The notes: generated by a model from the sequence alone, not told the origin. Counted from the stretch's first letter, positions 12,782 through 28,582 are shown. The stretch is DNA of 40,619 bases from Nocardioidaceae bacterium (GCA_013696555.1 JACCYJ010000185.1:1-40619), one strand, 5' to 3'. A program made the numbers and translations.

Positions 12782-12860
12782 CATAGCAAACATCCCATGT
12801 ACCCACTGCTGCAGTGCATGGCAAGCATGGAACCGGATCAGGACGGGTACGACGACACCC

Positions 12861-13532
12861 ATGGCCGACGGAGTGCTGCTCGATGTCGACGGGACGCTGG
12901 TCGACACGGTCTACCTGCACGTGGTGGCCTGGCAGCAGGCTTTCCTCGAGCACGATCACGTGATTCCCTCGGCTCGGCTGCATGCTGCCATCGGCATGGG
13001 TGGCGATCGACTCGTGGCCTGGGTCGCCGGCGACGAGGTCGAGACCCACAAAGGCGACATGCTGCGGGAGCGCTGGGAGGTGCTGTTCGACGGGATGCTG
13101 GATCGGGTTCGCCCAACAAACGGGGCGGCCGACCTCGTCCGGACGATCAAGGACCACGGACTACCCATCGCCTTCGCGTCCTCCGGCAAGGACAAGCACC
13201 TGGCCGCCGCGCGCCGGCAACTCGACGTCGACGACTGCATCGATGCCATCGCCACCACCGACGACGTCGAGAGCTCCAAGCCGGACGACGACTTGTTGCG
13301 CGTCACAGCCGACAAGATCCACGCCGGTGCGCCGGTGCTGATCGGCGACTCGCCCTGGGATGCAAGCGCAGCCGCCAAGGCCGGCATGCCTGTCTTGCTG
13401 GTGCGCACCGGTGGCTTCAGCGACGCGGCGCTGCGGGAGCAGGGCGGCGCGAGCGCTCTCATCTTCGACGACCCAGCCGACCTGGCCCGACGGCTCGATG
13501 AGACGCCGTTGGGCCGTGAAAGGCGCAACTAG
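12861..13532 (+). CDS. HAD superfamily hydrolase (phosphatase/beta-phosphoglucomutase-like)
   Basis: LLDVDGTLVDTVYLHVVAWQQAF; FASSGKDKHL; LIGDSPWDASAAAKAGMPVLLVRTGG. Confidence 0.9.
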   Translation: MADGVLLDVDGTLVDTVYLHVVAWQQAFLEHDHVIPSARLHAAIGMGGDRLVAWVAGDEVETHKGDMLRERWEVLFDGMLDRVRPTNGAADLVRTIKDHGLPIAFASSGKDKHLAAARRQLDVDDCIDAIATTDDVESSKPDDDLLRVTADKIHAGAPVLIGDSPWDASAAAKAGMPVLLVRTGGFSDAALREQGGASALIFDDPADLARRLDETPLGRERRN

Positions 13533-14323
13533 ATCTCGCGCCAACTTGCGTCGGCGGTGTCGTGACCGTGAGCGGCCATCCCCATCAGGCCGCCGTCAAC
13601 CACCCACGACGTCGACGTCACGTATCCCGAGCGCGGTGATGCCAGGAACGCGATCACCGACGCCACCTCGTTGACGTGGCCTGGGCGCCCGAGCGGGTTA
13701 CCGGCACGGTCCTCGTGGTAGGCGTCCAGCTCCGCCTTGCCGGTCATGGGGGTCGCGATCTCGCCGGGGGCAACTGACACCACCGTGATGTCGTGCTCGG
13801 CCAGCTCCAGCGCCAGCACCTTGCCGAACATCCCGAGGCCGGCCTTCGCAGCACAGTAGGCCGACGACCCCAACCGGGGCACATGCTCATGGACGCTGGT
13901 CACGTTGATGATGCGTCCGCCACCGTACCTGGTCATCATGTGCCGGGCAGCTGCCTGCGCACACAGGAACGGTCCGTCCAGATCGGTTGCCACCACGTCA
14001 CGCCAGCTCTGGTAGGACATGTCGACCACACGGACCGCGGTTCCGGTGCCGGCGTTGTTGACGAGCACACCAAGTCCACCCAGCTGGCTCACCAGCTCGC
14101 CGATCGCGTGCGCGGCGTCGGGGCCAGCCAGCTCCTGGTGCGCCACGAAGCAGCGCTGGCCCCGTTGCTCGACCTCCGCCACGGTGTCGGCCGCGCCCGA
14201 CTCATCGGTGTGGAACGTGATGCCCAGGTCGAAGCCCTCGTCGGCCAAGACATGGGCGGTTGCCTTACCGATGCCGGAGTCGGCTCCGGTCACGATGGCG
14301 AGTCGGGGGTAGTGGCCGCTCAT
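13529..14323 (-). CDS. SDR family oxidoreductase
   Basis: AIVTGADSGIGKATA; NNAG; SSAYCAAKAGL; ATG at 14323 in ATGA overlap with upstream gene. Confidence 0.9.
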   Translation of the reverse strand: MSGHYPRLAIVTGADSGIGKATAHVLADEGFDLGITFHTDESGAADTVAEVEQRGQRCFVAHQELAGPDAAHAIGELVSQLGGLGVLVNNAGTGTAVRVVDMSYQSWRDVVATDLDGPFLCAQAAARHMMTRYGGGRIINVTSVHEHVPRLGSSAYCAAKAGLGMFGKVLALELAEHDITVVSVAPGEIATPMTGKAELDAYHEDRAGNPLGRPGHVNEVASVIAFLASPRSGYVTSTSWVVDGGLMGMAAHGHDTADASWREI

Positions 14324-15933
14324 CTCGACCGCCGCAGTCGGGCGTGGGCGAGAGCGGCGCGGGCAGCGTTGGAGCCGGGACCGCCGTGCACTCCGCCGCC
14401 GGGGTGCGCGGACGCCGAACCCAGGTACAGGCCCTTCACCGGCGTCTCGGCCCGTCCCAGCCCCGGCACCGGCCGGAAGATCAGCTGCTGGTGCAACGAC
14501 GACGTGCCTCCGTTCAGCGAGCCGTACTCGAGGTTCTCGTCGAGCCGCTGCAGGTCGAGGGGGCTCAGCACCCTGCGGCTGAGGACGCGAGAGCCGAAAC
14601 CCGGGGCATAACGTTCTACGCGGGCCTGTATCCGGTCGGCCATGCGTTCCCCATCCGAGTGGTCCCAAGTTCCCCGAATGCTGCCATCACCGGCATCGGC
14701 GCGCACCTCGTGCGGCACATGGGTGTACGCCCACGCCGACTCGGTGCCCTGCGGCGAACGGGTGGGGTCCGAGGTCGTCATCTGCCCGAGCAGCAACAGC
14801 GGTTCGGCGGGTACGGTGTGCGCGCCGATCTGGGCGGCAGTGATCACGACGTGGTCCATCCCCTCGGTGATGTGGACGGTTCCGGGCGAGCTCACCGGCA
14901 CTCCCTTCCAGGGGATAGGACCGTTCAGGGCCCAGTCGACCTTGACGGTGCCCGGGTCCCACTCGAACCGCTGCATGCGAGAGCACAGCTTGGCCGGCAG
15001 GTCATCCCACGCGACGAGTCCGCCGTACAACCGCGGCGCCGCCACATCAGCGACCACTGCCTTCCGTACGGAGATCCGCTCACCGTCGTCGGTCTCGACG
15101 CCCACGGCACGACCGGCCTGGACGACGACCCGCACGACACGGGCGCCACAGCGGATCTGTCCTCCCTGCGCCGTGAACCGGTCGGCGAGTGCCTGGCTGA
15201 GACGACCAGCTCCTCCCTCTGGCACCGGCCAGCCCACTTCGTGCCCGAGCATGCACAACAGCCAGCCCATGAGGCCGGACCCTGGAGCGGTCGGAGGGAT
15301 GTCAGCGTGACCGGCGTTGCCGCCGATCAGCACCCGAGCCGCCTCACCGTTGAAGCGCTCGCCGACGGACTGGGCGCTGGAAAGCAGGAGCTGGAAGAAG
15401 GCCAACCCGCCGACAGCGGGTGCTCGCAGCGCCAGTCCGAGGCCGTGGCGCACGGGTGGGAAGGGGGTGAGCAGCGCGCCGATCAGTGACGGCTTCACCA
15501 CGTCCCAGATCCGTTTCATCTCCAGCCAGGTATCACCGTCACCGGGGCTTCGCTCGTCGAGACCGGCCGCCGTCGCCGCCGCGTCGCGGTGCAGCATCGC
15601 CCACGAGCCGTCATCGAACGGTGTACCGACGACCGCCGGCGCGTGCCGCCAGACCAGCCCGTGCTTCTCCAGATCGAGGCGCTGCAACGTCGGAGACGCC
15701 GCGGTGAGGGGGTAGAACGAGCTGAACGTGTCGTGGATGAAGCCGTCGTGCACTGTCGTGTCACTGCGCACCGCGCCGCCGACGGTGTCCTGCGACTCCA
15801 CCAACAGCACCTCCCAGCCGGCGTCTGCAAGGAGGTTGGCCGCTACCAGGCCATTAGGTCCGCTGCCGATGACGACGGCGTCGTACGCCGCGCGACCCGG
15901 CACGGTAGTGTCCGAAGCAGCCATAACCGTCAT
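14320..15933 (-). CDS. NAD(P)/FAD-dependent oxidoreductase (phytoene desaturase-like)
   Basis: DAVVIGSGPNGLVAANLLADAGWEVLLVESQDTVGGAVRSD; C-terminal PVKGLYLGSASAHPGGGVHGGPGSNAA. Confidence 0.9.
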   Translation of the reverse strand: MTVMAASDTTVPGRAAYDAVVIGSGPNGLVAANLLADAGWEVLLVESQDTVGGAVRSDTTVHDGFIHDTFSSFYPLTAASPTLQRLDLEKHGLVWRHAPAVVGTPFDDGSWAMLHRDAAATAAGLDERSPGDGDTWLEMKRIWDVVKPSLIGALLTPFPPVRHGLGLALRAPAVGGLAFFQLLLSSAQSVGERFNGEAARVLIGGNAGHADIPPTAPGSGLMGWLLCMLGHEVGWPVPEGGAGRLSQALADRFTAQGGQIRCGARVVRVVVQAGRAVGVETDDGERISVRKAVVADVAAPRLYGGLVAWDDLPAKLCSRMQRFEWDPGTVKVDWALNGPIPWKGVPVSSPGTVHITEGMDHVVITAAQIGAHTVPAEPLLLLGQMTTSDPTRSPQGTESAWAYTHVPHEVRADAGDGSIRGTWDHSDGERMADRIQARVERYAPGFGSRVLSRRVLSPLDLQRLDENLEYGSLNGGTSSLHQQLIFRPVPGLGRAETPVKGLYLGSASAHPGGGVHGGPGSNAARAALAHARLRRSR

Positions 15934-16010
15934 CCCTTCTGCTGGTACCCGGCCATCATGTTCCCACCAGGACGAGCATCGACTGGACGCGGTCGGGGTA
16001 ACAACCGGAC

Positions 16011-16451
16011 ATGAGCGTCACCATCCGCGAGTTCCAGTGCCAGCCTGAGCACGTCTTCGACGTCTTGCGAGACGGGTGGTCGTACGCCGCGTGGGTGGTC
16101 GGCGCGGCGCGGATCCGCGAGGTCGACGAAACCTGGCCGGCCGTCGGGTCACGGTTACAACACTCGGTGGGTGTCTGGCCGATGATGCTGGGCGACAGCA
16201 CCGAGGTGGAGGCGATCGATCCGCCTCGCCTGCTGCAGCTGCGGGCGCGAGCGTGGCCGAGCGGTGAGGCGAGGGTGCGGTTCGAGCTCGAGTCCACGGC
16301 GGGACAGTGCCGCGTCGTCATCACCGAGAAAGTTGTGGCCGGCCCGGCCCGGCTGATTCCGAACGTGTTGGAGAACGCCTTGATGCACTGGCGAAACACT
16401 GAGAGCCTGCGCCGCCTCGCCTACCTGGCAGAGCGTCATTCCCGGCGCTGA
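16011..16451 (+). CDS. SRPBCC family protein
   Basis: PEHVFDVLRDGWSYAAWVVGAARIREVD... START/Bet v1-like pattern. Confidence 0.8.
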   Translation: MSVTIREFQCQPEHVFDVLRDGWSYAAWVVGAARIREVDETWPAVGSRLQHSVGVWPMMLGDSTEVEAIDPPRLLQLRARAWPSGEARVRFELESTAGQCRVVITEKVVAGPARLIPNVLENALMHWRNTESLRRLAYLAERHSRR

Positions 16452-17254
16452 CACGCATCAACTGTCACACTGATCACAGGCCTACGGAGATGTGGGCAGC
16501 GGCTGGTACCAGTCTTTGGAGCCTTGGAGGCATCCCCTTGAGCGCAACCGCACGGAGCGTCAACACCACGGGCCGTCCCCTCATCTGCCTCGTGGCGACG
16601 GCAGTGGGCGCGGTCTTCCTGCTCACCGCCGTTCTCGGCTTCGTCCCAGGAATCACCACCAACCTCTACGACGGCCTCGAGCTCGCCGGCCACGACGGTA
16701 ATGCCAAGTTGCTCGGTCTCTTCGAGGTCTCGGTCCTGCTCAACATCGTTCACGGACTGTATGGAGTGGCGGGTCTCGCGATGGCACGCACCGCGGCCAG
16801 TGCTCGCACCTACCTGATCGGTGGTGGGGTCATCTACCTGGTGCTGTGGATCTACGGGCTGATCATCGACCAGACGAGCGACGCCAACTTCGTCCCGCTG
16901 AACGACGCCGACAACTGGTTGCACCTCGGTCTCGGTGTCGGCATGATCGCGCTCGGACTGGTCTCCGGTCGGACGGACTCGCGCCGCACCTGATCGGTCA
17001 GAGAAATCGGGGCTGATGACCGTGGCGCCGTCATCAGCCCCGGATGCGGTAGGGCGGATGAGTTTGTGGGTGCCGTCGCACCATGGCAGCAGAGATGACT
17101 TGCCACACCGGCACACTGCCACTACCGGTCGCTTCACCTCGTGGGGAATGCCATCGGCATCGCGAATGACATCGGCGCCGCGCACCAGCATTGGACCGCC
17201 CGGGCAGAGCGTCACCTCGACCGCATGGTCGCCGCCACAACGACGCTTGGTCAC
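16436..17254 (-). CDS. CDGSH iron-sulfur domain protein (conserved part about 17040-17254; downstream antisense extension doubtful)
   Basis: VTLCPGGPMLVRGADVIRDADGIPHEVKRPVVAVCRCGKSSLLPWCDGTHK; no stop codon in this frame until 16436. Confidence 0.6.
   Translation of the reverse strand: MTKRRCGGDHAVEVTLCPGGPMLVRGADVIRDADGIPHEVKRPVVAVCRCGKSSLLPWCDGTHKLIRPTASGADDGATVISPDFSDRSGAARVRPTGDQSERDHADTETEVQPVVGVVQRDEVGVARLVDDQPVDPQHQVDDPTTDQVGASTGRGACHRETRHSIQSVNDVEQDRDLEETEQLGITVVAGELEAVVEVGGDSWDEAENGGEQEDRAHCRRHEADEGTARGVDAPCGCAQGDASKAPKTGTSRCPHLRRPVISVTVDACQRRE
16538..16993 (+). CDS. DUF4383 domain membrane protein (TTG start proposed)
   Basis: GLFEVSVLLNIVHGLYGVAGLAMARTAASARTYLIGGGVIYLVLWIYGLI...ADNWLHLGLGVGMIALG. 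Confidence 0.75.
   Translation: MSATARSVNTTGRPLICLVATAVGAVFLLTAVLGFVPGITTNLYDGLELAGHDGNAKLLGLFEVSVLLNIVHGLYGVAGLAMARTAASARTYLIGGGVIYLVLWIYGLIIDQTSDANFVPLNDADNWLHLGLGVGMIALGLVSGRTDSRRT
17009..17041. terminator. Bidirectional stem-loop terminator
   Basis: GGGGCTGATGAC-CGTGGCGCC-GTCATCAGCCCC: perfect 12-bp stem, 9-nt loop, between convergent genes. Confidence 0.75.
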
Positions 17255-18267
17255 GCCCGCGACCTGACCACGTCTCGGCGGCGTGACCCGACCTCACACG
17301 AACACATGGGCTCCGGACAACCGCCACGTGCGAGTCGGCTTACGGAGTGCGCGGACCGGACGAGACGGGCTCCTCGGTACGGTACCCCTCCCCGGAGACG
17401 CTGCAACACCGCGATCCAGATGCACACTGCCCGTTCAGCAGTCCACACCGGAGCCCACCACGCAGCAGTGGCAGCGAAGACATGACGGCCACCGTGTCGA
17501 CGTCTGCCGTACTCCGCAAGAACCACCGACGCCCCTGCCAACATGAGCGCGGACCTTCCGGCCGTGCGGCGGGCGGCAGCCACCGCCATGGCCGGAAGCA
17601 GAGCCAGCTCGATGAGTAATCGCCCCGGCTGGGCCAAGCTGTCGTAAGCCTGACGTACTCGCTGTCCGCGAAAATGCGCGATCGGGGGCGGTAGCCGCCG
17701 GACGTACACGTCAGAGGCCACCCGCTGGCGCCGGCCGTGAACATGCATGGTGCGGATCAGCTCGAGGTTCTCGAACAGCACCGCGCCGCAGTAGCCATTC
17801 GACCGCTCCAGGGCGTGGCGGCGGACTGCCAGGGTGCCCGGGTAGTCGGCCCCGAGGGCACGATTGAGCAGCGTGCGCGCGGTGTCCCAGCGCGCGTGCC
17901 ACGGTAGTGGGTCGAAGTAGTTCTGCGGCCGCACCAGGTCGACATCGGCCATGAGGTCGACGACCTGGCGCAACGTCGCAGCGTCGTAGCGAACGTCATC
18001 GTCGGCGATGACGACGACATCACCAGTCGCCGCTTGCAGCCCGTCGAGGACGCCGGCGACCTTGCCGTTGAGGCAACGCGACGACACCGGAAAGTGCACC
18101 ACCCGATGACCCCACTGACGGTGGTTGTCGGCGAAGACCTCCGGGGGCGACCCGTCGGCTACCACCACCTCTACGTGTGCGGCCAGCCACGTCAGGTACG
18201 ACGCCAGCTCGCGGTCGGGTGTCGGCGTCGGGCGCCGCAGCGGCAGCAGGTAGGTCGTTCGGCTCAT
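17251..18267 (-). CDS. Glycosyltransferase family 2
   Basis: VEVVVADGSPPEVF, GDVVVIADDDVRYDAATLRQVVDLM; ATGA overlaps on both ends. Confidence 0.85.
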   Translation of the reverse strand: MSRTTYLLPLRRPTPTPDRELASYLTWLAAHVEVVVADGSPPEVFADNHRQWGHRVVHFPVSSRCLNGKVAGVLDGLQAATGDVVVIADDDVRYDAATLRQVVDLMADVDLVRPQNYFDPLPWHARWDTARTLLNRALGADYPGTLAVRRHALERSNGYCGAVLFENLELIRTMHVHGRRQRVASDVYVRRLPPPIAHFRGQRVRQAYDSLAQPGRLLIELALLPAMAVAAARRTAGRSALMLAGASVVLAEYGRRRHGGRHVFAATAAWWAPVWTAERAVCIWIAVLQRLRGGVPYRGARLVRSAHSVSRLARGGCPEPMCSCEVGSRRRDVVRSRA

Positions 18268-19316
18268 GCCCTCGTCCGCGCGGTGCCATCAACGAGGTTC
18301 CGGAGAGCGGTGTCCCCCGCTGACCACGCATCGAGCAGCCTCTCTGCCGCCAAGGCGTCTAGGCGGAGACAGACTGCCGCGCCCCAGATGATGTCGCCGA
18401 TGAGCTCCGGCTCCGTGGCCGCGGCGGCACCGCACACGTCCCGCACCGCGACCTGCTCGTGGACGGCATCGGCCTCGACGTGCTCGTCGAAGTAGCGGGC
18501 AGCGGACTCTCCACCGCCCAGCCTCCGAACGGCGGCCGCGTACCGGCGGTTTGGCAGCGAGCTGCTGGCCTCGAAGGCGCCGAGGTGCCCGATCGCCGCC
18601 CCGCGGAGGCGTCGGTGCAGCCCGAACATCGACATCGCGTTGCTGGCAGCCAGGACCACACCGGGAACCCGATCGACGTAGGCGCCGTAGGAAGGATCGA
18701 GCCCGCAGGCGTCCAACGTCTCGGCGAACATGAGCGCGTGCAGCCGCGCCGGGCGGCCCGAGCCGTACTCGTCGAACTGGATCTCGGCGAGCGCCACCTT
18801 TGCCTTGCCGGTCAACCGCGGGATCGCCCAGGTGTGCGGATCAGCCTCCTTGAGCTGGTAGATGCTGCGGCAGATCAGAAACTCGGATAACTGCTCGCGA
18901 TCGGCGTACCGCTGCAGGTGACGCGCCAGCGGCGGCGACTCCGCGTCGCGTACCAGAGCGAACAGCTGATCCGCCAGCGTGCCGGCCGCTGACATGGCGT
19001 ACGCCACCAGCGCGTCCGTCTCACGGCGAAGCGCGGCCTCGAAGGCGCCCTCGATCTGGCGGCGCACCGCCAACGACTCCGGACGCCATTCCCAGGTCGG
19101 GTCGACGTCATCGAAACCCTGGTAGTGCAGCTCATAGAGCAGCCACAGCGACAGCTGCACATCGTCGGCGGTGATGACGTCACCGCCCGCCAGCGCGGCG
19201 GACACTCTCGCGTGCATGTCCGCTTCATCGAGCGCCGACCCGCTCGACAGCCACTCGGACAGCAGCTGGGTGACCGGACCCCGCGGACACGGCAGCAACA
19301 TTGCGACTCCCGGCAT
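18264..19316 (-). CDS. Iron-containing redox enzyme family protein (haem-oxygenase-like diiron oxidase fold)
   Basis: ELHYQGF, EIQFDEYGSGRPARLHALMF, RRLRGAAIGHLGAFEASSSLPNRRY, RYFDEHVEADAVHEQVA metal-ligand-type motifs. Confidence 0.8.
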   Translation of the reverse strand: MPGVAMLLPCPRGPVTQLLSEWLSSGSALDEADMHARVSAALAGGDVITADDVQLSLWLLYELHYQGFDDVDPTWEWRPESLAVRRQIEGAFEAALRRETDALVAYAMSAAGTLADQLFALVRDAESPPLARHLQRYADREQLSEFLICRSIYQLKEADPHTWAIPRLTGKAKVALAEIQFDEYGSGRPARLHALMFAETLDACGLDPSYGAYVDRVPGVVLAASNAMSMFGLHRRLRGAAIGHLGAFEASSSLPNRRYAAAVRRLGGGESAARYFDEHVEADAVHEQVAVRDVCGAAAATEPELIGDIIWGAAVCLRLDALAAERLLDAWSAGDTALRNLVDGTARTRA

Positions 19317-19469
19317 TCAGCGGTCGGAGCGGCACGTCCCGTACCCACGGCAAGCGTCTTCATGCCAACCGCCCGTCGCAACCACTCGTTCAGCCGCGAC
19401 TTCTCGTCCTTGGCCGAGGGCGGTGAGTCGGAAATGAACGAACCGCGGGAGGGGTACGTCGAGCAGCGC

Positions 19470-20426
19470 TCAGAAGGCCGAGGTCAACCGGCCTCGAGCA
19501 GCGTCGAGGACCTCCTCGACGCTCACCCGCGCCAGCGCCGAATCGGTGGTATCGGCCCACGGATCACCGTCTCCCGGGCCGTGCCAGATCACGGTGTGCG
19601 GTCCAGCGATCGGTGGTCCCCACAGCCGTGGTGGAGTCGGGCCGAAGAGCGTCACCGACGGCGTTCGGTAGGCGCCGGCGAGGTGAGCCACGCCGGTGTC
19701 ACCGCTCACCACCAGCCGGGCCGCTGAGACCAGTGCGGCCAGCTCATCGATCCGGGTCCGCCCGGCAAGGATCGCGTCGTCGGGCAGCCCAGCCCGCGAG
19801 GCAACCTGCACCGCGAGCGGACGCTCCCGCTCGGTGCCGGTCACCACGATGCGATGCCCGTCGGCTCGCAACGCGGCTACCAGTTCGCCGAAACACTCCG
19901 GAGCCCATTGCCGCGACCGGTACGCCGCACCAGGATGGACGATCACCGCGTCGGTCACACGCGGGCGGACCGGAGGCGGAACCAGAGCGACGTCGTCGGG
20001 ATCCGCGTCCACCACGAGGCAGGTCCGGACGAGCCGGCACCACCGCTCCCGCTCGTGCTCGTCCGGCCACCAGGTCGGTCCGGGAATGTCTGCCTCGACG
20101 CAGCCGAAGGCGATCGACGCGTGCGGGCGCAGCGATCCCAGGAGTCGGTGGCTCTGCGGACCACGCCCGTGCAGGTTGACCGCCAGCGCGGGTCGCGGCC
20201 CGGCCCAGCGCAAGGGTTCCAAACCAGCCGCGGGATACACCTCGTCGACGAGCCCGTCCGGGTCCAGCAGCAGCGTCTGCCACTGCGGTGCCGCCAACAC
20301 GATGCGGTAGTCGGAGAGCGCCGCGCGCAACGCCCGGAGCGCCGGGACACCCGCGAGTAGGTCACCCAGTCCCAGCGCCCGCAGGACGAATGCCGTCGGC
20401 GCCTGAGCAGCGCCGCCGCCGATCAG
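19470..20426 (-). CDS. Glycosyltransferase family 9 (heptosyltransferase-like); proposed CTG start
   Basis: VIVHPGAAYRSRQWAPECFGELVAALRADGHRIVVTGTERER...LVVSGDTGVAHLAGAYRTPSVTLFGPT; conserved N-terminus FVLRALGLGDLLAGVPALRALR lies upstream of the first TTG (20330). Confidence 0.8.
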   Translation of the reverse strand: MIGGGAAQAPTAFVLRALGLGDLLAGVPALRALRAALSDYRIVLAAPQWQTLLLDPDGLVDEVYPAAGLEPLRWAGPRPALAVNLHGRGPQSHRLLGSLRPHASIAFGCVEADIPGPTWWPDEHERERWCRLVRTCLVVDADPDDVALVPPPVRPRVTDAVIVHPGAAYRSRQWAPECFGELVAALRADGHRIVVTGTERERPLAVQVASRAGLPDDAILAGRTRIDELAALVSAARLVVSGDTGVAHLAGAYRTPSVTLFGPTPPRLWGPPIAGPHTVIWHGPGDGDPWADTTDSALARVSVEEVLDAARGRLTSAF

Positions 20427-21106
20427 GGCCAGGATCCCTCGACCGAGGGCGTCACGATCAGCTCGCGTACTTCACATCCCGGTGGCTGCCGCAGCGCGAA
20501 GAGGACCGTGGCGGCGACGTCCTGCGGGCGGTTGAGTTTGGCGTCAGGAGGCGGCTTGTACTGCTCGTCACGGCCGTCGAAGAAGGGTGTCTGCATGCCA
20601 CCGGGTATGAGCAGGGTGACGCCGATCTGCCCAGCCGTCTCCGCGGCGAGCGCGCGGGTGAAACCGACCACCCCGAACTTCGCGGCGCAGTAGGCGGTGG
20701 CGTCGCTCACCGCGCGCAGGCCCAGCGTCGAGGCCACCGTCACCACCCGCCCCTGGCGCCGCCGCAGATCGGGCAGCGCGGCCCGGATGACGGCCGCGGT
20801 GCCCATCAGGTTGACCCTGATCACCTGATCCCACTCCGCCGCCGGGACGTCCTCGAGCCGACCGCACGAGTCGATCCCGGCGCAGGTAACGACGGCATCG
20901 ATCCCGCCGGTGCGCGCCGACACCGCCCGTACGGCAGCCTCGGTGTGCTCCCGGTCGGCGAGGTCGACGAGCTCGGACTCGACGGAGCTCTCGGGCTCGA
21001 CCCGGTCCAGCACGACGGGCCGCCCACCTGCGTCGGTGACGGCCTCGACGACCGCGGCGCCTAGGCCGGAGACACCTCCAGTGACCAGTACGGTTCCGAC
21101 GTTCAT
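20423..21106 (-). CDS. Classical SDR family oxidoreductase
   Basis: TVLVTGGVSGLGAAVVEAV; ATAYCAAKFGVVGFTRALAAE; ATGA overlap with upstream gene. Confidence 0.9.
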   Translation of the reverse strand: MNVGTVLVTGGVSGLGAAVVEAVTDAGGRPVVLDRVEPESSVESELVDLADREHTEAAVRAVSARTGGIDAVVTCAGIDSCGRLEDVPAAEWDQVIRVNLMGTAAVIRAALPDLRRRQGRVVTVASTLGLRAVSDATAYCAAKFGVVGFTRALAAETAGQIGVTLLIPGGMQTPFFDGRDEQYKPPPDAKLNRPQDVAATVLFALRQPPGCEVRELIVTPSVEGSWP

Positions 21107-22536
21107 GGGCGGCTCTCCTCTGCGGTGATGGATGGAGCCTCGACCAGCGACGTGGCAGCCGTTCGGACGAGGGACGTGGTCGATCGGCCTTGCACGTAGG
21201 GGAGCACGACCGCCTGGCCGCCCCACGTGCGCAGCGTCTGGCTCTCGGGCAGCTCGCTGCCGGCGTAGTCGCCGCCCTTCGCCCAGATGTCCGGGCGGAG
21301 GCGGCGGAGCGCGACGTCCGGGGTGTCCTCGTCGAAGACGAGCACGGCGTCGACACAGCCGAGAGCCAGCAGCACCCAAGCCCGGTCCGCCTCGCAGACG
21401 ACGGGCCGACCGGGGCCCTTGAGGCGAGCAATGGACGCATCGGAGTTGAGGCAGACCACAAGACAGTCACCCAGGCTGCGTGCCGATCGCAGGGTGGCCA
21501 CGTGACCGGCGTGCAGCAGGTCGAAGCAGCCGCCGGTGGCGACCACCACACCTCCGGCAGCTCGAACCGACGCGACAACCTGCGCGGCCGCTGGCAGCGC
21601 CTCACGGTCGGGTGCCACGGCGCTGCGGCGGCGCGCGAACGCGGCCGCCCCGCCGTGGCTGACGTGCTCGGATGCGGCGAGGACGGCCGCCTGCACTGCC
21701 TCGGCGGTCACCATCCCCGAGCCCAGCGACGTGGCAGCGGTCACCGCGAACCGGTCGCCGGCCCCGCAGGTGTCGCCGCCGACGGCGACCGGTGCCGGAA
21801 CGACCACCGGCGCGTCGCCGCCGTAGGACAGCAAGGCACCCCGCTCCCCCAACGTCACCGCCACGGCGCGGTTCCGCCACGCAGACACCAGCCCCGCGGT
21901 GAGGTCGGTGAGGGCGGCCAGCGAGGACGAGCCGCTCGCTGCCGAGATGCCGTGCCGCTCGGCCCAGATCGCCACCTCTGCGGCGTTGGGCGTCGCCAGA
22001 TGTACGCCGGCAACCGGAGGCTCCCCACGAGGGTGCGGGTCCCATACCACCGGTACGTCGCGTACCCGCTCGCGCAGGCAGTCGCGAACCTGCGGGGATG
22101 CGGTGAGGCCGCGACCGTAGTCGGCGACCAGCACCACCGTCGCGGCGCGCAGGGCCGCGGCGGCTGCGGCTGATAACTCCTCCACCAGGCCGGCCTGTCG
22201 CCCGCTGTCCAAGCGGACGAGGGTCTGCCCGGCGGCCCGGATTCGACGCTTCACCGCTGTTGTGCCCGGCAACGGCAGCGGGACGACCCGCACTGCTGGC
22301 TCGAGCAGCCGCTTCAGGTCGGCGCCGTCCTGGTCGTCGAACCAGGGGGCTATCAGGACCACGTCGTGGCCGTCCACCGCTGCCATGGCAGCGGCCAGTG
22401 CTGCACCGCCGGGCCGTGGGGAATCGACGACATCGTCGAGCACCGGCACCGGAGTGTCGGGGCACAATCGGCTCACTCGACCGACAACGTCGATGTCGAG
22501 CATCGCGTCCCCGATGACGACCAGGAGCCCCCTCAC
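21103..22536 (-). CDS. hldE: Bifunctional HldE-like heptose-phosphate kinase / heptose-1-phosphate nucleotidyltransferase (GTG start)
   Basis: PfkB part VVIGDAMLDIDVVGRVSRLCPDTPVPVL, AVGGDTCGAGDRF; C-terminal VVATGGCFDLLHAGHVATLRSARSLGDCLVVCLNSDASIARLKGPGRPVV...DIWAKGGDY. Confidence 0.9.
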   Translation of the reverse strand: MRGLLVVIGDAMLDIDVVGRVSRLCPDTPVPVLDDVVDSPRPGGAALAAAMAAVDGHDVVLIAPWFDDQDGADLKRLLEPAVRVVPLPLPGTTAVKRRIRAAGQTLVRLDSGRQAGLVEELSAAAAAALRAATVVLVADYGRGLTASPQVRDCLRERVRDVPVVWDPHPRGEPPVAGVHLATPNAAEVAIWAERHGISAASGSSSLAALTDLTAGLVSAWRNRAVAVTLGERGALLSYGGDAPVVVPAPVAVGGDTCGAGDRFAVTAATSLGSGMVTAEAVQAAVLAASEHVSHGGAAAFARRRSAVAPDREALPAAAQVVASVRAAGGVVVATGGCFDLLHAGHVATLRSARSLGDCLVVCLNSDASIARLKGPGRPVVCEADRAWVLLALGCVDAVLVFDEDTPDVALRRLRPDIWAKGGDYAGSELPESQTLRTWGGQAVVLPYVQGRSTTSLVRTAATSLVEAPSITAEESRP

Positions 22537-23159
22537 GAGAAGCTCCCGACTCCGTCGACCGGCAGCTGGTCCGGAGCGGCTTCGACCACAGTCAGCGCCC
22601 GGTCGAACGCGGCACAGACCAGATGCAACGCCACCAGATGCATCTCCTGCACGGTGGCGGTCGAGCCGGCCGCTACCGCCAGCACCTCGTCCGACTCCTC
22701 GGCCAGCGGGTTCGGGCGGGCGCCGGTGAGCGCCCAGACCCGCAGACCACAGCGCCGGGCGCGACGGGCTGCGGCCACCACGTTGGGGCTGCGGCCACTC
22801 GTCGACAGCACCGCGAGCACGTCTCCGGGGCGACCGTGTGCTTCCACCTGACGGGCGAACAGCTCCTCGGCGGGATAGTCGTTGGCGATGGCGGTCAGCG
22901 TGGAGGTCTCCGCGCTCAGACAGATGGCGGAGAAGGGTGCCCGGTCGTCTCGGTAGCGCCCGACCAGCTCGGCCGTGAGGTGCTGAGCCTGGGCAGCGCT
23001 GCCGCCATTGCCGACGGCGAGCAGCCGGCCACCACCTTCGAGGACTATCGCCAGCTGTCTGCCCCAGCGGTTGGCGATCGCGACCGAGGGTGCGAACTCG
23101 TCGAGGGCTGAGCGCAGCATGCGGAGATGGTCGAGGCCGTACGGCACGGGCATCGTCAT
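22533..23159 (-). CDS. gmhA: GmhA-like SIS-domain phosphoheptose isomerase
   Basis: LLAVGNGGSAAQAQHLTAELVGRYRDDRAPFSAICLSAETSTLTAIANDYPAEELFARQVEAHGRPGDVLAVLSTSGRSPNV; VQEMH motif. Confidence 0.88.
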   Translation of the reverse strand: MTMPVPYGLDHLRMLRSALDEFAPSVAIANRWGRQLAIVLEGGGRLLAVGNGGSAAQAQHLTAELVGRYRDDRAPFSAICLSAETSTLTAIANDYPAEELFARQVEAHGRPGDVLAVLSTSGRSPNVVAAARRARRCGLRVWALTGARPNPLAEESDEVLAVAAGSTATVQEMHLVALHLVCAAFDRALTVVEAAPDQLPVDGVGSFS

Positions 23160-24364
23160 CGCAGCGCCTCCGCGGCCGGGGCCGACACCGACTCGACGAC
23201 GCGGGTGTAGACGTCCTCGGTCTCGGCCGCCACCTGCTCCCACCGGTAGTGCTGGTGGGCGCGGTGCACGCCTGCGGCACCGTAGGCCGCCCGGCGTCGA
23301 CCGTCGGCCAGCAAGTCGCGCAATGTGATGGCCAGCAGGTCCGACCGCCGAGCTGGGATGAGCTCCCCGGTCACTCCCGGAAGGATCGTGTCCAGCAGTC
23401 CGCCAACGGCCGACCCCACCACCGGTCGGCCACATGCCATCGCCTCCAGCGGCACGATGCCGAAAGGTTCGTACCACGGCACCGCCACGACCACGTCGGC
23501 CAGCGCGAACACGGCGGGCAGGGAGTCGTGGCAGACACGTCCGAAGAACTCGATCCGCTGCAACGATCCGGCTGCCGCCGCGCGCCGACGCAACCGCTGC
23601 ACCTCCGGGTCGAGTGCCAGGGAGTCCCGCGCCGGTCCGCCCACCACCAGCAGCTCCACGCCCGGCAACTCGGCCATCGCGTCCACGACGTCGGCGACAC
23701 CCTTACGCTCCACGAGCCTGCCGACAACGACGAGCCGCTGCTTCCCGTCGCCCGGGTGCGGTGCGGGCGTGAAGCGGGCAACGTCGACGCCACACGGGAC
23801 CACGCTGACCTTTGCCCTGGGCAAGCCGGCCCGGCGAAGCTCCGCGACCTCGTCGCTGCAGGTGGCGATCACGTGGTCGACCGTCCGGCACAGCTCGCGT
23901 TCGACGCTGGTACGAGCCAGCGGGCTGGTGTCATGTGCGCCCTGGTAACGCCGCTTGACGGTTCCGAGCGCGTGGAAGGTCTGCACGACCGGAATGTCGA
24001 GCGGCCCCGCTGCAGACGTCGCCGCGGCACCGCTCATCCAGAAGTGTGCGTGCACGACGTCGGGGCGCTCCGCCGCCCACCGAGCGGCGAGATAGCGCGC
24101 GAAGTCGGCCATGAACGGCCACAGCTCGTCCTTGGGCACCTCACTCGGCGGCCCTGCGGGCACGTGTTCGACCAGGTAGCCATCCGGCGCACGCAACCGC
24201 GTCGCCACGGCGGCGTCGTCGCGGCGGGTGAAAACGGTGACCTCGTGTCCACGCGACGCAAGGTGAGCTGCCAGCGCTGCTACGTGCACATTCTGGCCAC
24301 CGGCGTCGACCCCGCCCACAGCGCCCAGCGGGTCTGCGTGCTCGGACACCATCGCGATTCTCAT
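23156..24364 (-). CDS. Glycosyltransferase family 4
   Basis: MVSEHADPLGAVGGVDAGGQNVHVAALAAHLASRGHEVTVFTRR; VPWYEPFGIVPLEAMACGRPVVGSAVGGLLDTI. Confidence 0.92.
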   Translation of the reverse strand: MRIAMVSEHADPLGAVGGVDAGGQNVHVAALAAHLASRGHEVTVFTRRDDAAVATRLRAPDGYLVEHVPAGPPSEVPKDELWPFMADFARYLAARWAAERPDVVHAHFWMSGAAATSAAGPLDIPVVQTFHALGTVKRRYQGAHDTSPLARTSVERELCRTVDHVIATCSDEVAELRRAGLPRAKVSVVPCGVDVARFTPAPHPGDGKQRLVVVGRLVERKGVADVVDAMAELPGVELLVVGGPARDSLALDPEVQRLRRRAAAAGSLQRIEFFGRVCHDSLPAVFALADVVVAVPWYEPFGIVPLEAMACGRPVVGSAVGGLLDTILPGVTGELIPARRSDLLAITLRDLLADGRRRAAYGAAGVHRAHQHYRWEQVAAETEDVYTRVVESVSAPAAEALR

Positions 24365-25437
24365 CGGATTCCATCCTTTGGCCTCGGTAGCAGGGCAGCA
24401 CCCGCAGGCGACGCCCCGACCAGTTGGGATCCTTCGGTCAGCTCGTGCACCGCGGCGACGACCCGGTGCGGCGAGACAGATGTCAGGCAGGGGTGTCCCG
24501 GCACGGGGCAGTGCGTCGCGCGAGTATCGCGGCAGGCAGCGTCCTGGTCCCCCAGCAGCACATGCGGGACGCGGTACGGCGCCCAACGCACCGCGGGCAC
24601 CGTCGGGGCGTACAACGAGACCACCGGGCTACCAACCGCAGCGGCCAGGTGAGCCGGACCGGTGTTGCCGACGACGACCGCGGCGGCGCCGGAGATGACG
24701 TTCGCGAGCCGCGGCATCGTCGTCCGGCCGGCCAGGTTGATCCCTACACCGCCGGTCGCCAGCTCACACAACGCGGTTTCGGCTCCGGAGCCCGTCACCA
24801 CGACCTGCCATCCGTCGTGCGCCAAGAGCCGCGCCGCCTCGGCGTACCACTCCACCGGCCAGGCGCGGGCCGGGACCGACGTCCCCGGGTGCAAGACGAC
24901 GTACCGGCCTGAGCCGACGAGGTCAGCAACGTCGGGCAGCGGACTCCGCAGCCGCAGGCGTCCGTCGTCGCCGGACGGCAGCTGGAAGCCGGCGGCGCGG
25001 CACAACGACAAGGCGCGTTCGGCCTCGGGGATGTCCTCGTCGACGTTGTGGCGCACATCGAGCAGGGAGCCGGGGTAGTCGACGCTGATGGCAGCGATCC
25101 ACGGCACGCCGGCCAGGCGCAGCAGGAGCGCAGTGGGCAGCGGCGACTGGTGGAACGACGTGAAGATGACGGCGCCATCAAAGCCGCGTTGGGCCAGGTC
25201 CGCGACCAGCCGGGCCACGTGCGCGGCGTCGACCCGCGGTGGCTGTCCGTCGATCCACGGGCAGCGCCACACCAGAACCTCGTCGCCGCCGGGGAGCAGT
25301 CGAGCGGCCTCGGCACCGTGCGGACCGGCCAGCACGACCACCTCGTCGGCGCCGGCCCGGAGCGCGCGGAGCGCCGGCCCCGTCAACACCACGTCCCCGG
25401 CGTTATCGAGCCGCACGGCGAGCAGCCGGGCGCTCAT
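24361..25437 (-). CDS. Glycosyltransferase family 9 (heptosyltransferase-like)
   Basis: LAVRLDNAGDVVLTGPALRALRAGADEVVVLAGPHG; VVLHPGTSVPARAWPVEWYAEAARLL; VVVGNTGPAHLAAAVGSPVVSLYAPT. Confidence 0.9.
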   Translation of the reverse strand: MSARLLAVRLDNAGDVVLTGPALRALRAGADEVVVLAGPHGAEAARLLPGGDEVLVWRCPWIDGQPPRVDAAHVARLVADLAQRGFDGAVIFTSFHQSPLPTALLLRLAGVPWIAAISVDYPGSLLDVRHNVDEDIPEAERALSLCRAAGFQLPSGDDGRLRLRSPLPDVADLVGSGRYVVLHPGTSVPARAWPVEWYAEAARLLAHDGWQVVVTGSGAETALCELATGGVGINLAGRTTMPRLANVISGAAAVVVGNTGPAHLAAAVGSPVVSLYAPTVPAVRWAPYRVPHVLLGDQDAACRDTRATHCPVPGHPCLTSVSPHRVVAAVHELTEGSQLVGASPAGAALLPRPKDGIR

Positions 25438-26945
25438 CGGGCACCGCTCAGGAGCCAGCTGGCGGCGGCGTCCAGGTCGCGCTGGACGTAACGTGCCGCC
25501 GCTACCTCTGTTGCCAGGGTGACACCGGTCGGCACCAACACACCGGTGGCACCGGCCGCTTCGGCCGCCTCCACGTCGGTACCGATGTCACCGACGACGA
25601 CGCACCTCTCCGTCGGAATGCCGAGCTCCTCGCACGCGGACTTGATCATGCCGGGGGCGGGCTTGCGGCAGTCGCACCCGTCGTCGCGACCGTGCAAGCA
25701 GACTCGCCACACGTCGAACGGTCCGAGCAGCTGCTCGACCCTGTCGTTGACGGCCGCCAGCTGGGCGGGGACGATCCGTCCCGAAGCGACGCCTGACTGG
25801 TTGGTGACCACGCCCGTGCGCACCCCGGCTGCACGCAGCCGCTGGAGTGCCTCCCGGGCGCCGATCAGGGGCGCCACCCGCGCCGGCTCGGCGTTATAGG
25901 GGACATCGCTGACCAACGTGCCGTCGCGGTCGAAGAGAACCAGCTCGGGTACGCCTTGCCACGGTCTTGCCTTCCGGTGCCGCCAGAGTCCGGTCAGCGT
26001 GTGCCAGGTAGCTGCCGGAGGGATCGCGACGCTGGTCAGCAGCATGCGGCGTACCTCGCGCCGATCCCGCGGTCCGGGCCAGATGCGAGCGGTGGCCAGC
26101 TCGGTCACCCCCACCAGCCACGCACAACCTGCCGCCGAGGCGATCCGCGGATGTCGGGCGATGGCCGCACCCATTGCCAGGGTGCCCGCGATCGTCGTCG
26201 CCAGGTGCCGGCGCCGCCGACCGCGAGGCGCCGCGGCGCGGACACGCCAGCCACCACTGTGCACCCGTCGCATCAGCGCGTCGTCGGCGTTCCCGGCCTG
26301 TTGCCGCACGCTGACCCAGTCATCGCTGGGGCGTACCGGGTGAGTAACCCGGCGGCTTCCCATCACCAACGCTCCGCCGGAGTCGAGCACCCGCAGGCCG
26401 AGGTCGGCGTCCTCGCGGTAGGCGCGCGGAAACCGTTCGTCGAAGCCACCCACCGTCCGCAGCGCAGCGCGCCGGTACGTCATGTCGGCGGTGATCCACG
26501 AGGCCGTCGCCAGTCCGGCAGTGGACCGCTCCCAGTCGGTGGGGCGCCGGTCGGCGGGTAGCGGTACCTGGACCCGGCCCTGGATCCCGGCCACCCGGCA
26601 TTCCGCCGCCGCCAGGTCGTCGGCGAGCTTGCGGGACCAGTCCGCAGCCGGGACCACGTCATCGTCGAGAAAGCTGACCCACGGTGTCCGGGTCGCCCGC
26701 CAGCCGACATTTCGCGCCCGCGCCGGTCCGCCGCCGTCCGAACGCAACACGATCAGCCCGCGAAGGCGCGACTGCATGGCCGAGAGGTCCAGCGGATCTC
26801 GATCGGCCTGTGCCGCCGGCCGATCATCGACAACCACAACTCCTGTCGGAAGCGGCCCAACGCCGTCGGCCAGGGCCGTCAACAAGTGGTGCAGGCTTGG
26901 TCGGCCCAGCGTCGGGACGACCACGGTTGTCGGCACCGTCTCCAT
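25434..26945 (-). CDS. GT2 glycosyltransferase fused to C-terminal GmhB-like HAD-IIIA phosphatase
   Basis: N-term TTVVVPTLGRPSLHHLLTAL...SFLDDDVVPAADW; C-term LVLFDRDGTLVSDVPYN...TNQSGVASG...CLHGRDDGCDCRKPAPGMI...VVGDIGTDVEAAEAAG. Confidence 0.9.
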   Translation of the reverse strand: METVPTTVVVPTLGRPSLHHLLTALADGVGPLPTGVVVVDDRPAAQADRDPLDLSAMQSRLRGLIVLRSDGGGPARARNVGWRATRTPWVSFLDDDVVPAADWSRKLADDLAAAECRVAGIQGRVQVPLPADRRPTDWERSTAGLATASWITADMTYRRAALRTVGGFDERFPRAYREDADLGLRVLDSGGALVMGSRRVTHPVRPSDDWVSVRQQAGNADDALMRRVHSGGWRVRAAAPRGRRRRHLATTIAGTLAMGAAIARHPRIASAAGCAWLVGVTELATARIWPGPRDRREVRRMLLTSVAIPPAATWHTLTGLWRHRKARPWQGVPELVLFDRDGTLVSDVPYNAEPARVAPLIGAREALQRLRAAGVRTGVVTNQSGVASGRIVPAQLAAVNDRVEQLLGPFDVWRVCLHGRDDGCDCRKPAPGMIKSACEELGIPTERCVVVGDIGTDVEAAEAAGATGVLVPTGVTLATEVAAARYVQRDLDAAASWLLSGAR

Positions 26946-28582
26946 CAGCGGACTCCCGGGCGACGTACCAGGAATGACCCGATGGCAAGCAGGTCGACCG
27001 GTGCCGACCCGAAGCACTCAAGCGCGTCGCGCGGGTCATCCACCATTGGCCGGCCCGCAGTGTTGAGACTGGTGTTGACCACCACGGGCAATCCGGTGCG
27101 CCGTTCGAACTCTCCCAGCATGCTCGCCAGCAACGGCTCATCGGCGGCGTCCACGGTCTGCACTCGCGCCGTGCCGTCCACGTGCACCACGGCCGGGATG
27201 CGGTCTCGCCAGGCAGCGTCCACGTCGTGGACGAACAGCATGTACGGCGACGGGAGCGGGCCGCGGCTGAAGATGTCAGCTGCCCGCGTTGCCAGCACCA
27301 TCGGTGCCACCGGGCGGAACTGCTCGCGGCCCTTCACGTCGTTGAGTCGCTCCAGATTGGCGGCGTAACCCGGGTGTGCCAGCAGCGACCGGTGACCAAG
27401 GGCGCGGGGCCCGTACTCGCTACGGCCCTGGAACCAGGCCACGACGCCGTTGTTCGCCAGGCTCTCCGCCACGGCGGCGGCAACGTCGGACGAACGCTCG
27501 TACGGGACCCGGGCGGTGTTGAGCCACGCCTCGATCTCGTCGTCGTTCCAACCCCGGCCTAGGTCGACTCCTGGCATCGGCGCGGGAACGTCACCGTCGC
27601 AGCGGGCGACGTGCAGGGCACCGCCGAGTGCGGTGCCGGCGTCACCGGCGGCGGGCTGCACCCACACCCGTTGGTACGGCCCTTCGGCCGCCAACCGGGT
27701 GTTGGCAACGCAGTTCAGCGCCACCCCGCCGGCCAAGGTGAGCGTGTCGCTCCGGGTACGCCCGTGCAGCCACCCCGCCAGCTCGAGCAGGATCTCCTCG
27801 AGCCGAAGCTGCAGGCTGGCGGCCAGGTCGGCGTGATCGCGGGTCCATTCCGCATCGGCGGCCCGGGCCTTGACCAGGCTGTTCCAATCGACCGGGTAGG
27901 TCCGAAAGCCGCCGTCGCCACTCGTTCGGATCGTCTGCCGGAGCTCGGGCAGGAATCGCGGGGTGCCGTAGGACGCCAGCGCCATCACCTTGTACTCGTC
28001 GCTACTGCGAAGGAAGCCGAGATGCTCGGTGACGTCTTCGAACACCAGCCCGAGCGAGTGCGGCAACTGCTGGCTCGCCAGGATCTCGAGCCGTCCCTCG
28101 ACGTATCGACCTGCCAGGTGGCTCACCGACTCGCCACGACCGTCGAGCACCAGAACGTCGTTGTCGGCGTACGGCGAGGCCAGTCCGGCCGAGGCAGCGT
28201 GCGCGACATGGTGCGGGACGTAGCGAACCTTGCCCGGGTCCAGCCCGGGCAACGCGGTGGCCAGGAAGCCCGGTGCCGCCCGGGCGTACGTGATGCGTAG
28301 GTGGTCCCAGGGGTCGTGCAGACCCATCGAGTCGGCCGGTCGAGCCAGGGCCGGGTCGAATGAGTACGCGACGGCGTCGAGGTCCGCGGCGTCGATGCCG
28401 GCCTGCTCGAGGCACCATCGGGCGGCCTGCTCCGGTAGCTCCCAGGCGGAGAAGGGGACTGGTCGTTTGCCATGCTTGCGCCGGCTGAACCGCTCCTCTT
28501 CCCCCGCTGCCACCGTCTCGCCGTCCACTACGAGCGCAGCTGCGGGGTCGTGGAAGATCGCGTTGATCCCGAGGACCTTCAT
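26945..28582 (-). CDS. Carbamoyltransferase (NodU/CmcH family)
   Basis: MKVLGINAIFHDPAAALVVDGETVAAGEEERFSRRKHGKRPVPFSA; HHVAHAASA; LAGGVALNCVANTRL; QGRSEYGPRALGHRSLLAHP; FRPVAPMVL. Confidence 0.95.
   Translation of the reverse strand: MKVLGINAIFHDPAAALVVDGETVAAGEEERFSRRKHGKRPVPFSAWELPEQAARWCLEQAGIDAADLDAVAYSFDPALARPADSMGLHDPWDHLRITYARAAPGFLATALPGLDPGKVRYVPHHVAHAASAGLASPYADNDVLVLDGRGESVSHLAGRYVEGRLEILASQQLPHSLGLVFEDVTEHLGFLRSSDEYKVMALASYGTPRFLPELRQTIRTSGDGGFRTYPVDWNSLVKARAADAEWTRDHADLAASLQLRLEEILLELAGWLHGRTRSDTLTLAGGVALNCVANTRLAAEGPYQRVWVQPAAGDAGTALGGALHVARCDGDVPAPMPGVDLGRGWNDDEIEAWLNTARVPYERSSDVAAAVAESLANNGVVAWFQGRSEYGPRALGHRSLLAHPGYAANLERLNDVKGREQFRPVAPMVLATRAADIFSRGPLPSPYMLFVHDVDAAWRDRIPAVVHVDGTARVQTVDAADEPLLASMLGEFERRTGLPVVVNTSLNTAGRPMVDDPRDALECFGSAPVDLLAIGSFLVRRPGVR

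Follow-up and report, generated by a model that had tools for sequence, protein, structure and literature searches.

Why would a diiron oxygenase, a glycosyltransferase and an iron-sulfur protein be encoded by overlapping genes beside a set of heptose genes? We addressed this question for a 40,619-nucleotide stretch of DNA from a Nocardioidaceae bacterium (JACCYJ010000185.1; hereafter the window), which is part of a 2.8-Mb draft genome. The trio consists of a haem-oxygenase-like diiron oxidase/oxygenase (HDO), a GT2 glycosyltransferase and a protein with a CDGSH [2Fe-2S] domain. An earlier, sequence-only reading had attached these genes to the heptose operon and had suggested that the CDGSH protein drives the HDO in an oxidative tailoring step on the glycoconjugate. 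We see an even chance that the trio is instead a stress oxidation module under SigB/SigF control, made up of an N-oxygenase-like HDO, a dedicated CDGSH protein as its probable electron donor and an optional tailoring enzyme, rather than the tail end of the heptose operon.

The HDO and its CDGSH partner

The HDO gene is present on the minus strand, as the sequence-only reading had placed it, and encodes a full PF14518 protein. The AlphaFold model of the HDO (pLDDT 93.6, pTM 0.93) was compared with known structures using Foldseek, which ranked HrmI first (E=1e-10, TM about 0.7), followed by SznF and RohS and then FlcD, while a profile built from 47 relatives matched RohS (E=4e-17), HrmI and SznF in the PDB. 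The window protein has both the helical fold of the HDO superfamily and the 3 His/3 carboxylate (3H/3C) ligand set. The predicted diiron ligands are E157, E183, H193, E249, H279, D283 and H286, and all seven are invariant in two alignments (A1 and A2, of 20 and 47 sequences). The sequence-only reading survives the check for lost metal ligands, every predicted ligand being kept.

Six of these residues (E157, E183, H193, H279, D283 and H286) correspond to SznF E189, E215, H225, H311, D315 and H318, with identical spacing in phmmer and profile alignments. The invariant E249 is aligned with SznF E281, which we take to be the extra Glu from the auxiliary helix (3H/4C set), the number agreeing with a count along the alignment; yet HrmI, a 3H/3C enzyme, has a Glu there too. 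The roles of the SznF ligand residues were partly taken from PMC13108848. As judged from the alignments and the model, the predicted metal site has kept all its ligands, and the closest enzymes of known function are N-oxygenases.

Comparison with these enzymes indicates what is shared and what sets the window protein apart. The central HDO domain of SznF has the same PF14518-type fold and the same ligand spacing, with E249 aligned to its putative extra Glu (3H/4C set), but the window protein is only about 20% identical and lacks the cupin domain. SznF belongs to one biosynthetic cluster, with no dedicated CDGSH partner described in the literature that we found, whereas the window HDO family is spread through actinobacteria. 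The lysine N-oxygenases HrmI and BelK, of which HrmI gives the best full-length fold match, share 20% identity with the window HDO and are described as 3H/3C enzymes (PMC13108848); unlike the window HDO, they have no known CDGSH protein or stress promoter. RohS, the 2-aminoimidazole N-oxygenase of azomycin biosynthesis and the best profile match in the PDB, is a shorter protein (306 aa) and a pathway enzyme, and no azomycin genes were seen here.

The window CDGSH protein has a single motif (CRCGKSSLLPWCDGTH, pattern CxCxxSxxxPxCDGTH), which is intact, its three Cys and one His being the four predicted cluster ligands. We explored the association of the two proteins in 59 genomes of the order, in 150 genomes across the phylum, where HDOs were split into high-scoring and lower-scoring PF14518 proteins, in 80 named loci that span many genera of actinobacteria, where CDGSH was scored by strict motif, and in 54 class-wide loci. 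Gene calls in the fetched loci were home-made. Among the genomes of the order, 37/59 carried both genes, 20 carried neither, and a single genome was found with each gene on its own (Fisher p=1.5e-13, a nominal value because the genomes are related). Across the phylum, a CDGSH gene lay within 3 kb of 20/24 high-scoring HDOs and of 0/39 lower-scoring PF14518 proteins, and the link is therefore specific to this HDO subfamily. The same spacing was observed in 76 of the 80 named loci and 45 of the 54 class-wide loci; in L068, one of the four named loci that failed the strict motif, Pfam detects the CDGSH domain and the failure is a motif miss.

Genome-level p-values ignore phylogeny, which is partly offset by the two further samples and by changes of gene orientation on the tree. 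The two genes occur on the same strand, convergently or divergently, with about 22 orientation-state changes on a quick HDO tree, and adjacency is kept. The genes of the pair overlap by exactly 4 nucleotides in 31 loci. These overlaps and the kept adjacency fit a protein pair that is made together, and no HDO-CDGSH fusion protein was found in the 69 loci that were readable for fusion. Thus, the co-occurrence expected from the sequence-only reading goes far beyond chance and the genes stay adjacent despite rearrangement, data that already refute a chance adjacency of unrelated genes and leave it a negligible probability.

We found no paper in the open literature that describes such a pairing; a review of HDOs (PMC13108848) makes no mention of ferredoxins or electron donors for these enzymes, and a 2011 survey of CDGSH types makes none of operon context. 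The HDO-linked CDGSH group resembles the type 4 CDGSH proteins, such as RsCISD, which are also small, single-motif and bacterial/actinobacterial (PMC3174974). The window member shares the single motif, whereas its frame as read, at 272 aa, exceeds the small size of this type. The type 4 proteins are without an assigned partner, whereas the group described here is tied to an HDO, and its mycobacterial and Streptomyces members differ in carrying a CDTSH variant (L107, L108, L109, L111, L112, L113, L144 and L146), in which the four predicted ligands are kept. Electron donation is the simplest role for the CDGSH protein by analogy with AibH1H2 and AibG (PMC10811679), where a dinuclear oxygenase is likewise encoded with its own small [2Fe-2S] (Rieske) protein, although the folds differ on both sides, AibH1H2 having an amidohydrolase fold. 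Given this analogy and the co-occurrence, it is reasonable to regard the CDGSH protein as the probable electron donor to the HDO.

A third gene and a candidate SigB/SigF-type promoter

The subfamily of the window GT2 is narrow (45-56% identity). It shows the D(D)xD and conserved acceptor-side motifs of GT2/GT21-type membrane glycosyltransferases, with ADDDVR, FE..E and QR.RQAYD invariant (A3 alignment), and has a helical C-terminal part. The GT2 model (pLDDT 92) adopts a GT-A fold with long C-terminal helices, and its nearest structures in the PDB are PcManGT and the cellulose synthase BcsA. This likeness, together with the long helices, makes a lipid-linked acceptor plausible. The subfamily was found in 10/150 phylum genomes, beside an HDO in nine of the ten, and among the order-level relatives it occurs only in genomes with an HDO. 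The gene is placed before, between or after the HDO/CDGSH pair, with about 26 presence changes on the tree. GT2 is genuinely, and almost exclusively, tied to this HDO.

In other loci the place of GT2 is taken by an NPPY-motif methyltransferase, which is HemK2/MTQ2-like in Streptomyces, Kitasatospora and mycobacteria and of a second type in the family-level clade f67. GT2 is present in 50/184 loci and a methyltransferase in 27/184, never both, a pattern to which clade structure contributes. A remnant of GT2 of about 70 aa lies between HDO and CDGSH in L106 (G003:C3 about 1191-1421), and GT2 can therefore decay while the pair stays. One clade (L175, L176 and L180) has the HDO without CDGSH, with its own NPPY-motif methyltransferase adjoining the HDO and no visible replacement redox partner.

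Next to the conserved pair, the region upstream of the HDO points to a stress-type promoter. Nine motif types were tried at first, SigB/SigF among them, and the pattern GNNT-N14-16-GGGTAY was fixed afterwards. Of 39 distinct relatives from the order, 18 carry it upstream of the HDO (1.4% expected), and so do 10/38 loci of an independent later set (0.6% expected, p=5e-14), where the reversed control gave two hits. IdeR, Zur, LexA, SigR and sigma-70 promoter-like motifs upstream of the HDO were absent or showed no enrichment. The motif matches published SigF and SigH consensus sequences, namely GTTT-N14-19-GGGTA for SigF of Mycobacterium smegmatis (PMC4694148), GGWWT-N16-17-GGGTAY (PMC7693655) and a similar promoter element for Actinoplanes SigH (PMC11205660). 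A second GCAT-N-GGGTAC site in the window, at 12825-12850 (+), stands just before a HAD hydrolase gene at 12861 and is possibly another stress promoter.

Stress-type genes recur among the neighbours of the pair: SigB/SigF sigma factors, YbdK ligases, DUF4383 and SRPBCC proteins. SigB homologues lie within 4 kb of the pair in 11/184 loci. In Streptomyces and Kitasatospora the pair is flanked by SigB/SigF factors, STAS and ATP-binding (anti-sigma-like) proteins, CsbD and YbdK, and one Kitasatospora locus has a SpoIIE/ATP-binding/STAS/CsbD set nearby. The mycobacterial-type locus L109 encodes a methyltransferase, a CDGSH protein (75 aa) and then a convergent HDO. In M. smegmatis, MSMEG_1771 (methylase), MSMEG_1772 and MSMEG_1773 (conserved hypothetical) are strongly SigF-dependent, MSMEG_1772 sharing the promoter of MSMEG_1771 and MSMEG_1773 having its own (PMC4694148). 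The three are also higher in cells that had gone through cycles of spray drying (PMC5445863). We infer that these genes encode a methyltransferase, a CDGSH protein and an HDO, as in L109.

A stress role is also known for a protein with this domain in a Gram-negative bacterium. DtpC from Acinetobacter baumannii has, like the window HDO, an HDO domain with metal ligands; it limits H2O2 and supports desiccation tolerance, and its predicted ligands are needed for this stress protection (PMC13232832). The two proteins are likened by their HDO domain and description, and they differ in that DtpC has a Gram-negative host and no reported CDGSH protein.

The trio and its surroundings in the window

Table 1 Features of the trio and its immediate surroundings, in window coordinates.
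Feature	Position	Strand	Details
HDO (haem-oxygenase-like diiron oxidase/oxygenase)	18264..19316	-	350 aa; PF14518 E=5e-57
GT2/GT21-like glycosyltransferase	17251..18267	-	338 aa; PF13506/PF00535
CDGSH [2Fe-2S] domain	17063..17197	-	PF09360 E=3.8e-13; motif CRCGKSSLLPWCDGTH
CDGSH open frame as read	16436..17254	-	GTG start at 17254; first stop 16436; 272 aa
ATGA overlap, HDO stop/GT2 start	18264..18267	-	4 nt; from sequence
GTGA overlap, GT2 stop/CDGSH start	17251..17254	-	4 nt; from sequence
SigB/SigF-type promoter candidate, GCAT-N15-GGGTAC	19341..19365	-	-10 at 19346-19341; 24 nt before HDO start codon
DUF4383 gene	16490..16993	+	Convergent with CDGSH
GT9 gene	19470..20330		153-bp gap to HDO

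The three genes are joined as the sequence-only reading had described, with one correction: the overlap between HDO and GT2 is indeed ATGA, whereas that between GT2 and CDGSH is GTGA, because the start codon of CDGSH is GTG. The end of the CDGSH gene had been set at 17034, and this stop belongs to a different open reading frame (17034-17327). As read, the CDGSH frame runs antisense across the convergent DUF4383 gene. Its orthologues stop soon after the motif, with tails of about 5-30 aa (mostly 5-21, and ~23 residues in the same-genus genome); the window gene has therefore either lost its natural stop or carries an assembly or sequencing error. The frame beyond about 17030 is probably run-on sequence antisense to DUF4383.

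Beside the trio, 14320-16993 encodes a CrtO/CrtI-like FAD oxidoreductase, an SRPBCC protein and DUF4383, all of them conserved in L102, from the second genome of the genus, and DUF4383 is near the HDO in several other genera as well. A conserved wider gene cluster around the pair was considered and rejected, no Pfam family occurring in more than 5/136 flanking genes. The heptose-type cluster occupies 21103-26777 (-) and encodes a PfkB and cytidylyltransferase fusion (HldE-like), a SIS protein (GmhA-like), a GT4 and two GT9 proteins, as well as a GT2-HAD phosphatase fusion (25434-26777, -). A NodU/CmcH-type carbamoyltransferase (26945-28582, -) adjoins the GT2-HAD fusion at the upstream end of the cluster.

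Two other loci have dimethylargininase/arginine-deiminase-like genes directly upstream of the HDO (L111, 5094-5915; L077, 9119-9892), a possible hint of a guanidine substrate. An arginine pathway was not retained, since the dimethylargininase beside the HDO in Kitasatospora and the arginine-deiminase-like gene in L077 are isolated cases.

Explanations for the trio

The computation shows which families the proteins belong to, that the predicted metal sites are intact, that HDO and CDGSH form a fixed pair, that the GT2 is dedicated to the HDO, that GT2 and methyltransferase alternate and that the promoter motif is enriched. Electron transfer, N-oxygenation, the order of the steps and a protective role are what we infer in the following scheme. 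A SigB/SigF-type sigma factor would switch on a diiron HDO resembling SznF, HrmI and RohS. The single-motif CDGSH [2Fe-2S] protein would most likely give electrons to the diiron site, allowing O2 to bind again after each turnover, and the HDO would most likely N-oxygenate, or otherwise oxidise, a small and probably widely available metabolite. The product would then be modified by the third enzyme, a GT2 of the membrane type in roughly one locus in four, that of the window among them, and an NPPY-type methyltransferase in others, or it would be left as it is where there is none. In its most specific form, with the CDGSH/NEET protein as the physiological donor in a two-component oxygenase, SigB/SigF-type control in many actinobacteria and an N-oxygenated stress metabolite to which a glycosyl or methyl group is then added, we put the scheme forward tentatively, with the balance leaning against it.

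Several observations weigh against a stress oxidation module of this kind. SigB/SigF control of the HDO is not universal: the named set, which is rich in Micrococcales, shows the motif in only 5/80 loci. Nor does every HDO strictly need CDGSH, since in the class-wide sample a CDGSH gene is missing from clade f67 and a few others that retain the HDO, and no replacement ferredoxin or Rieske gene was seen beside these CDGSH-less HDOs. The CDGSH gene of the window itself has no normal stop. MSMEG_1772 and MSMEG_1773 are identified as CDGSH and HDO by gene order alone, and the exact M. smegmatis promoter string for MSMEG_1773 is absent from 397 genomes of the genus of L109. Finally, NEET clusters are also known for cluster and iron transfer.

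Two live rivals are the delivery of iron to a labile cluster and the scavenging of oxidants. Instead of electrons, the CDGSH protein may supply iron to the diiron site, or hold or repair it, which we consider unlikely; NEET proteins can release their clusters, but known HDOs can be assembled in vitro by adding Fe(II). A review describes the clusters of HDOs as notably labile (PMC13108848). Iron supply predicts the same genomics of fixed pairing and 4-nucleotide overlaps, but there are genomes in which this HDO is kept and CDGSH is missing. Alternatively, the pair may scavenge oxidants, the HDO reducing peroxide or O2 with CDGSH electrons, much as rubrerythrin uses its rubredoxin-type iron, and so protect the cell against drying or oxidative stress with no product being made. 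This is rather improbable in our view, since the closest structures are substrate N-oxygenases and the tailoring enzymes that alternate beside the HDO, GT2 or methyltransferase, suggest a chemical product. It would, however, fit the SigB/SigF-type control, the effect of DtpC on H2O2 and desiccation tolerance through its predicted metal ligands (PMC13232832), and the raised levels in spray-drying-cycled cells of the SigF-controlled M. smegmatis cluster with its inferred orthologues (PMC5445863).

The tailoring of a heptose glycoconjugate of the neighbouring operon by a CDGSH-driven HDO, as proposed by the sequence-only reading, has very little left in its favour. The trio does lie 3' of the heptose genes and in the same direction, across the 153-bp gap, and the genus offers a further case of a heptosyltransferase fragment close to the trio. 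Yet this gap, which separates the HDO from the GT9 gene, carries a promoter candidate of its own, and a heptosyltransferase (GT9) is near the trio only within this genus, apart from one weak GT9 match elsewhere (L026). With neighbours that are diverse across loci and a heptose linkage confined to the genus, heptose tailoring was rejected as the leading explanation, and the promoter and gene context point instead to a stress regulon.

If the trio is a stress oxidation module in which the CDGSH protein serves the HDO, it would provide a physiological partner for an HDO family and a function for a large group of bacterial CDGSH proteins. The phylum-wide pair, with its dedicated third enzyme and stress promoter, makes both the supply of electrons or iron to HDOs and the role of bacterial CDGSH proteins open to experiment. 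Should the stress link be right, the trio may represent an actinobacterial counterpart of the HDO-dependent desiccation tolerance of Acinetobacter.

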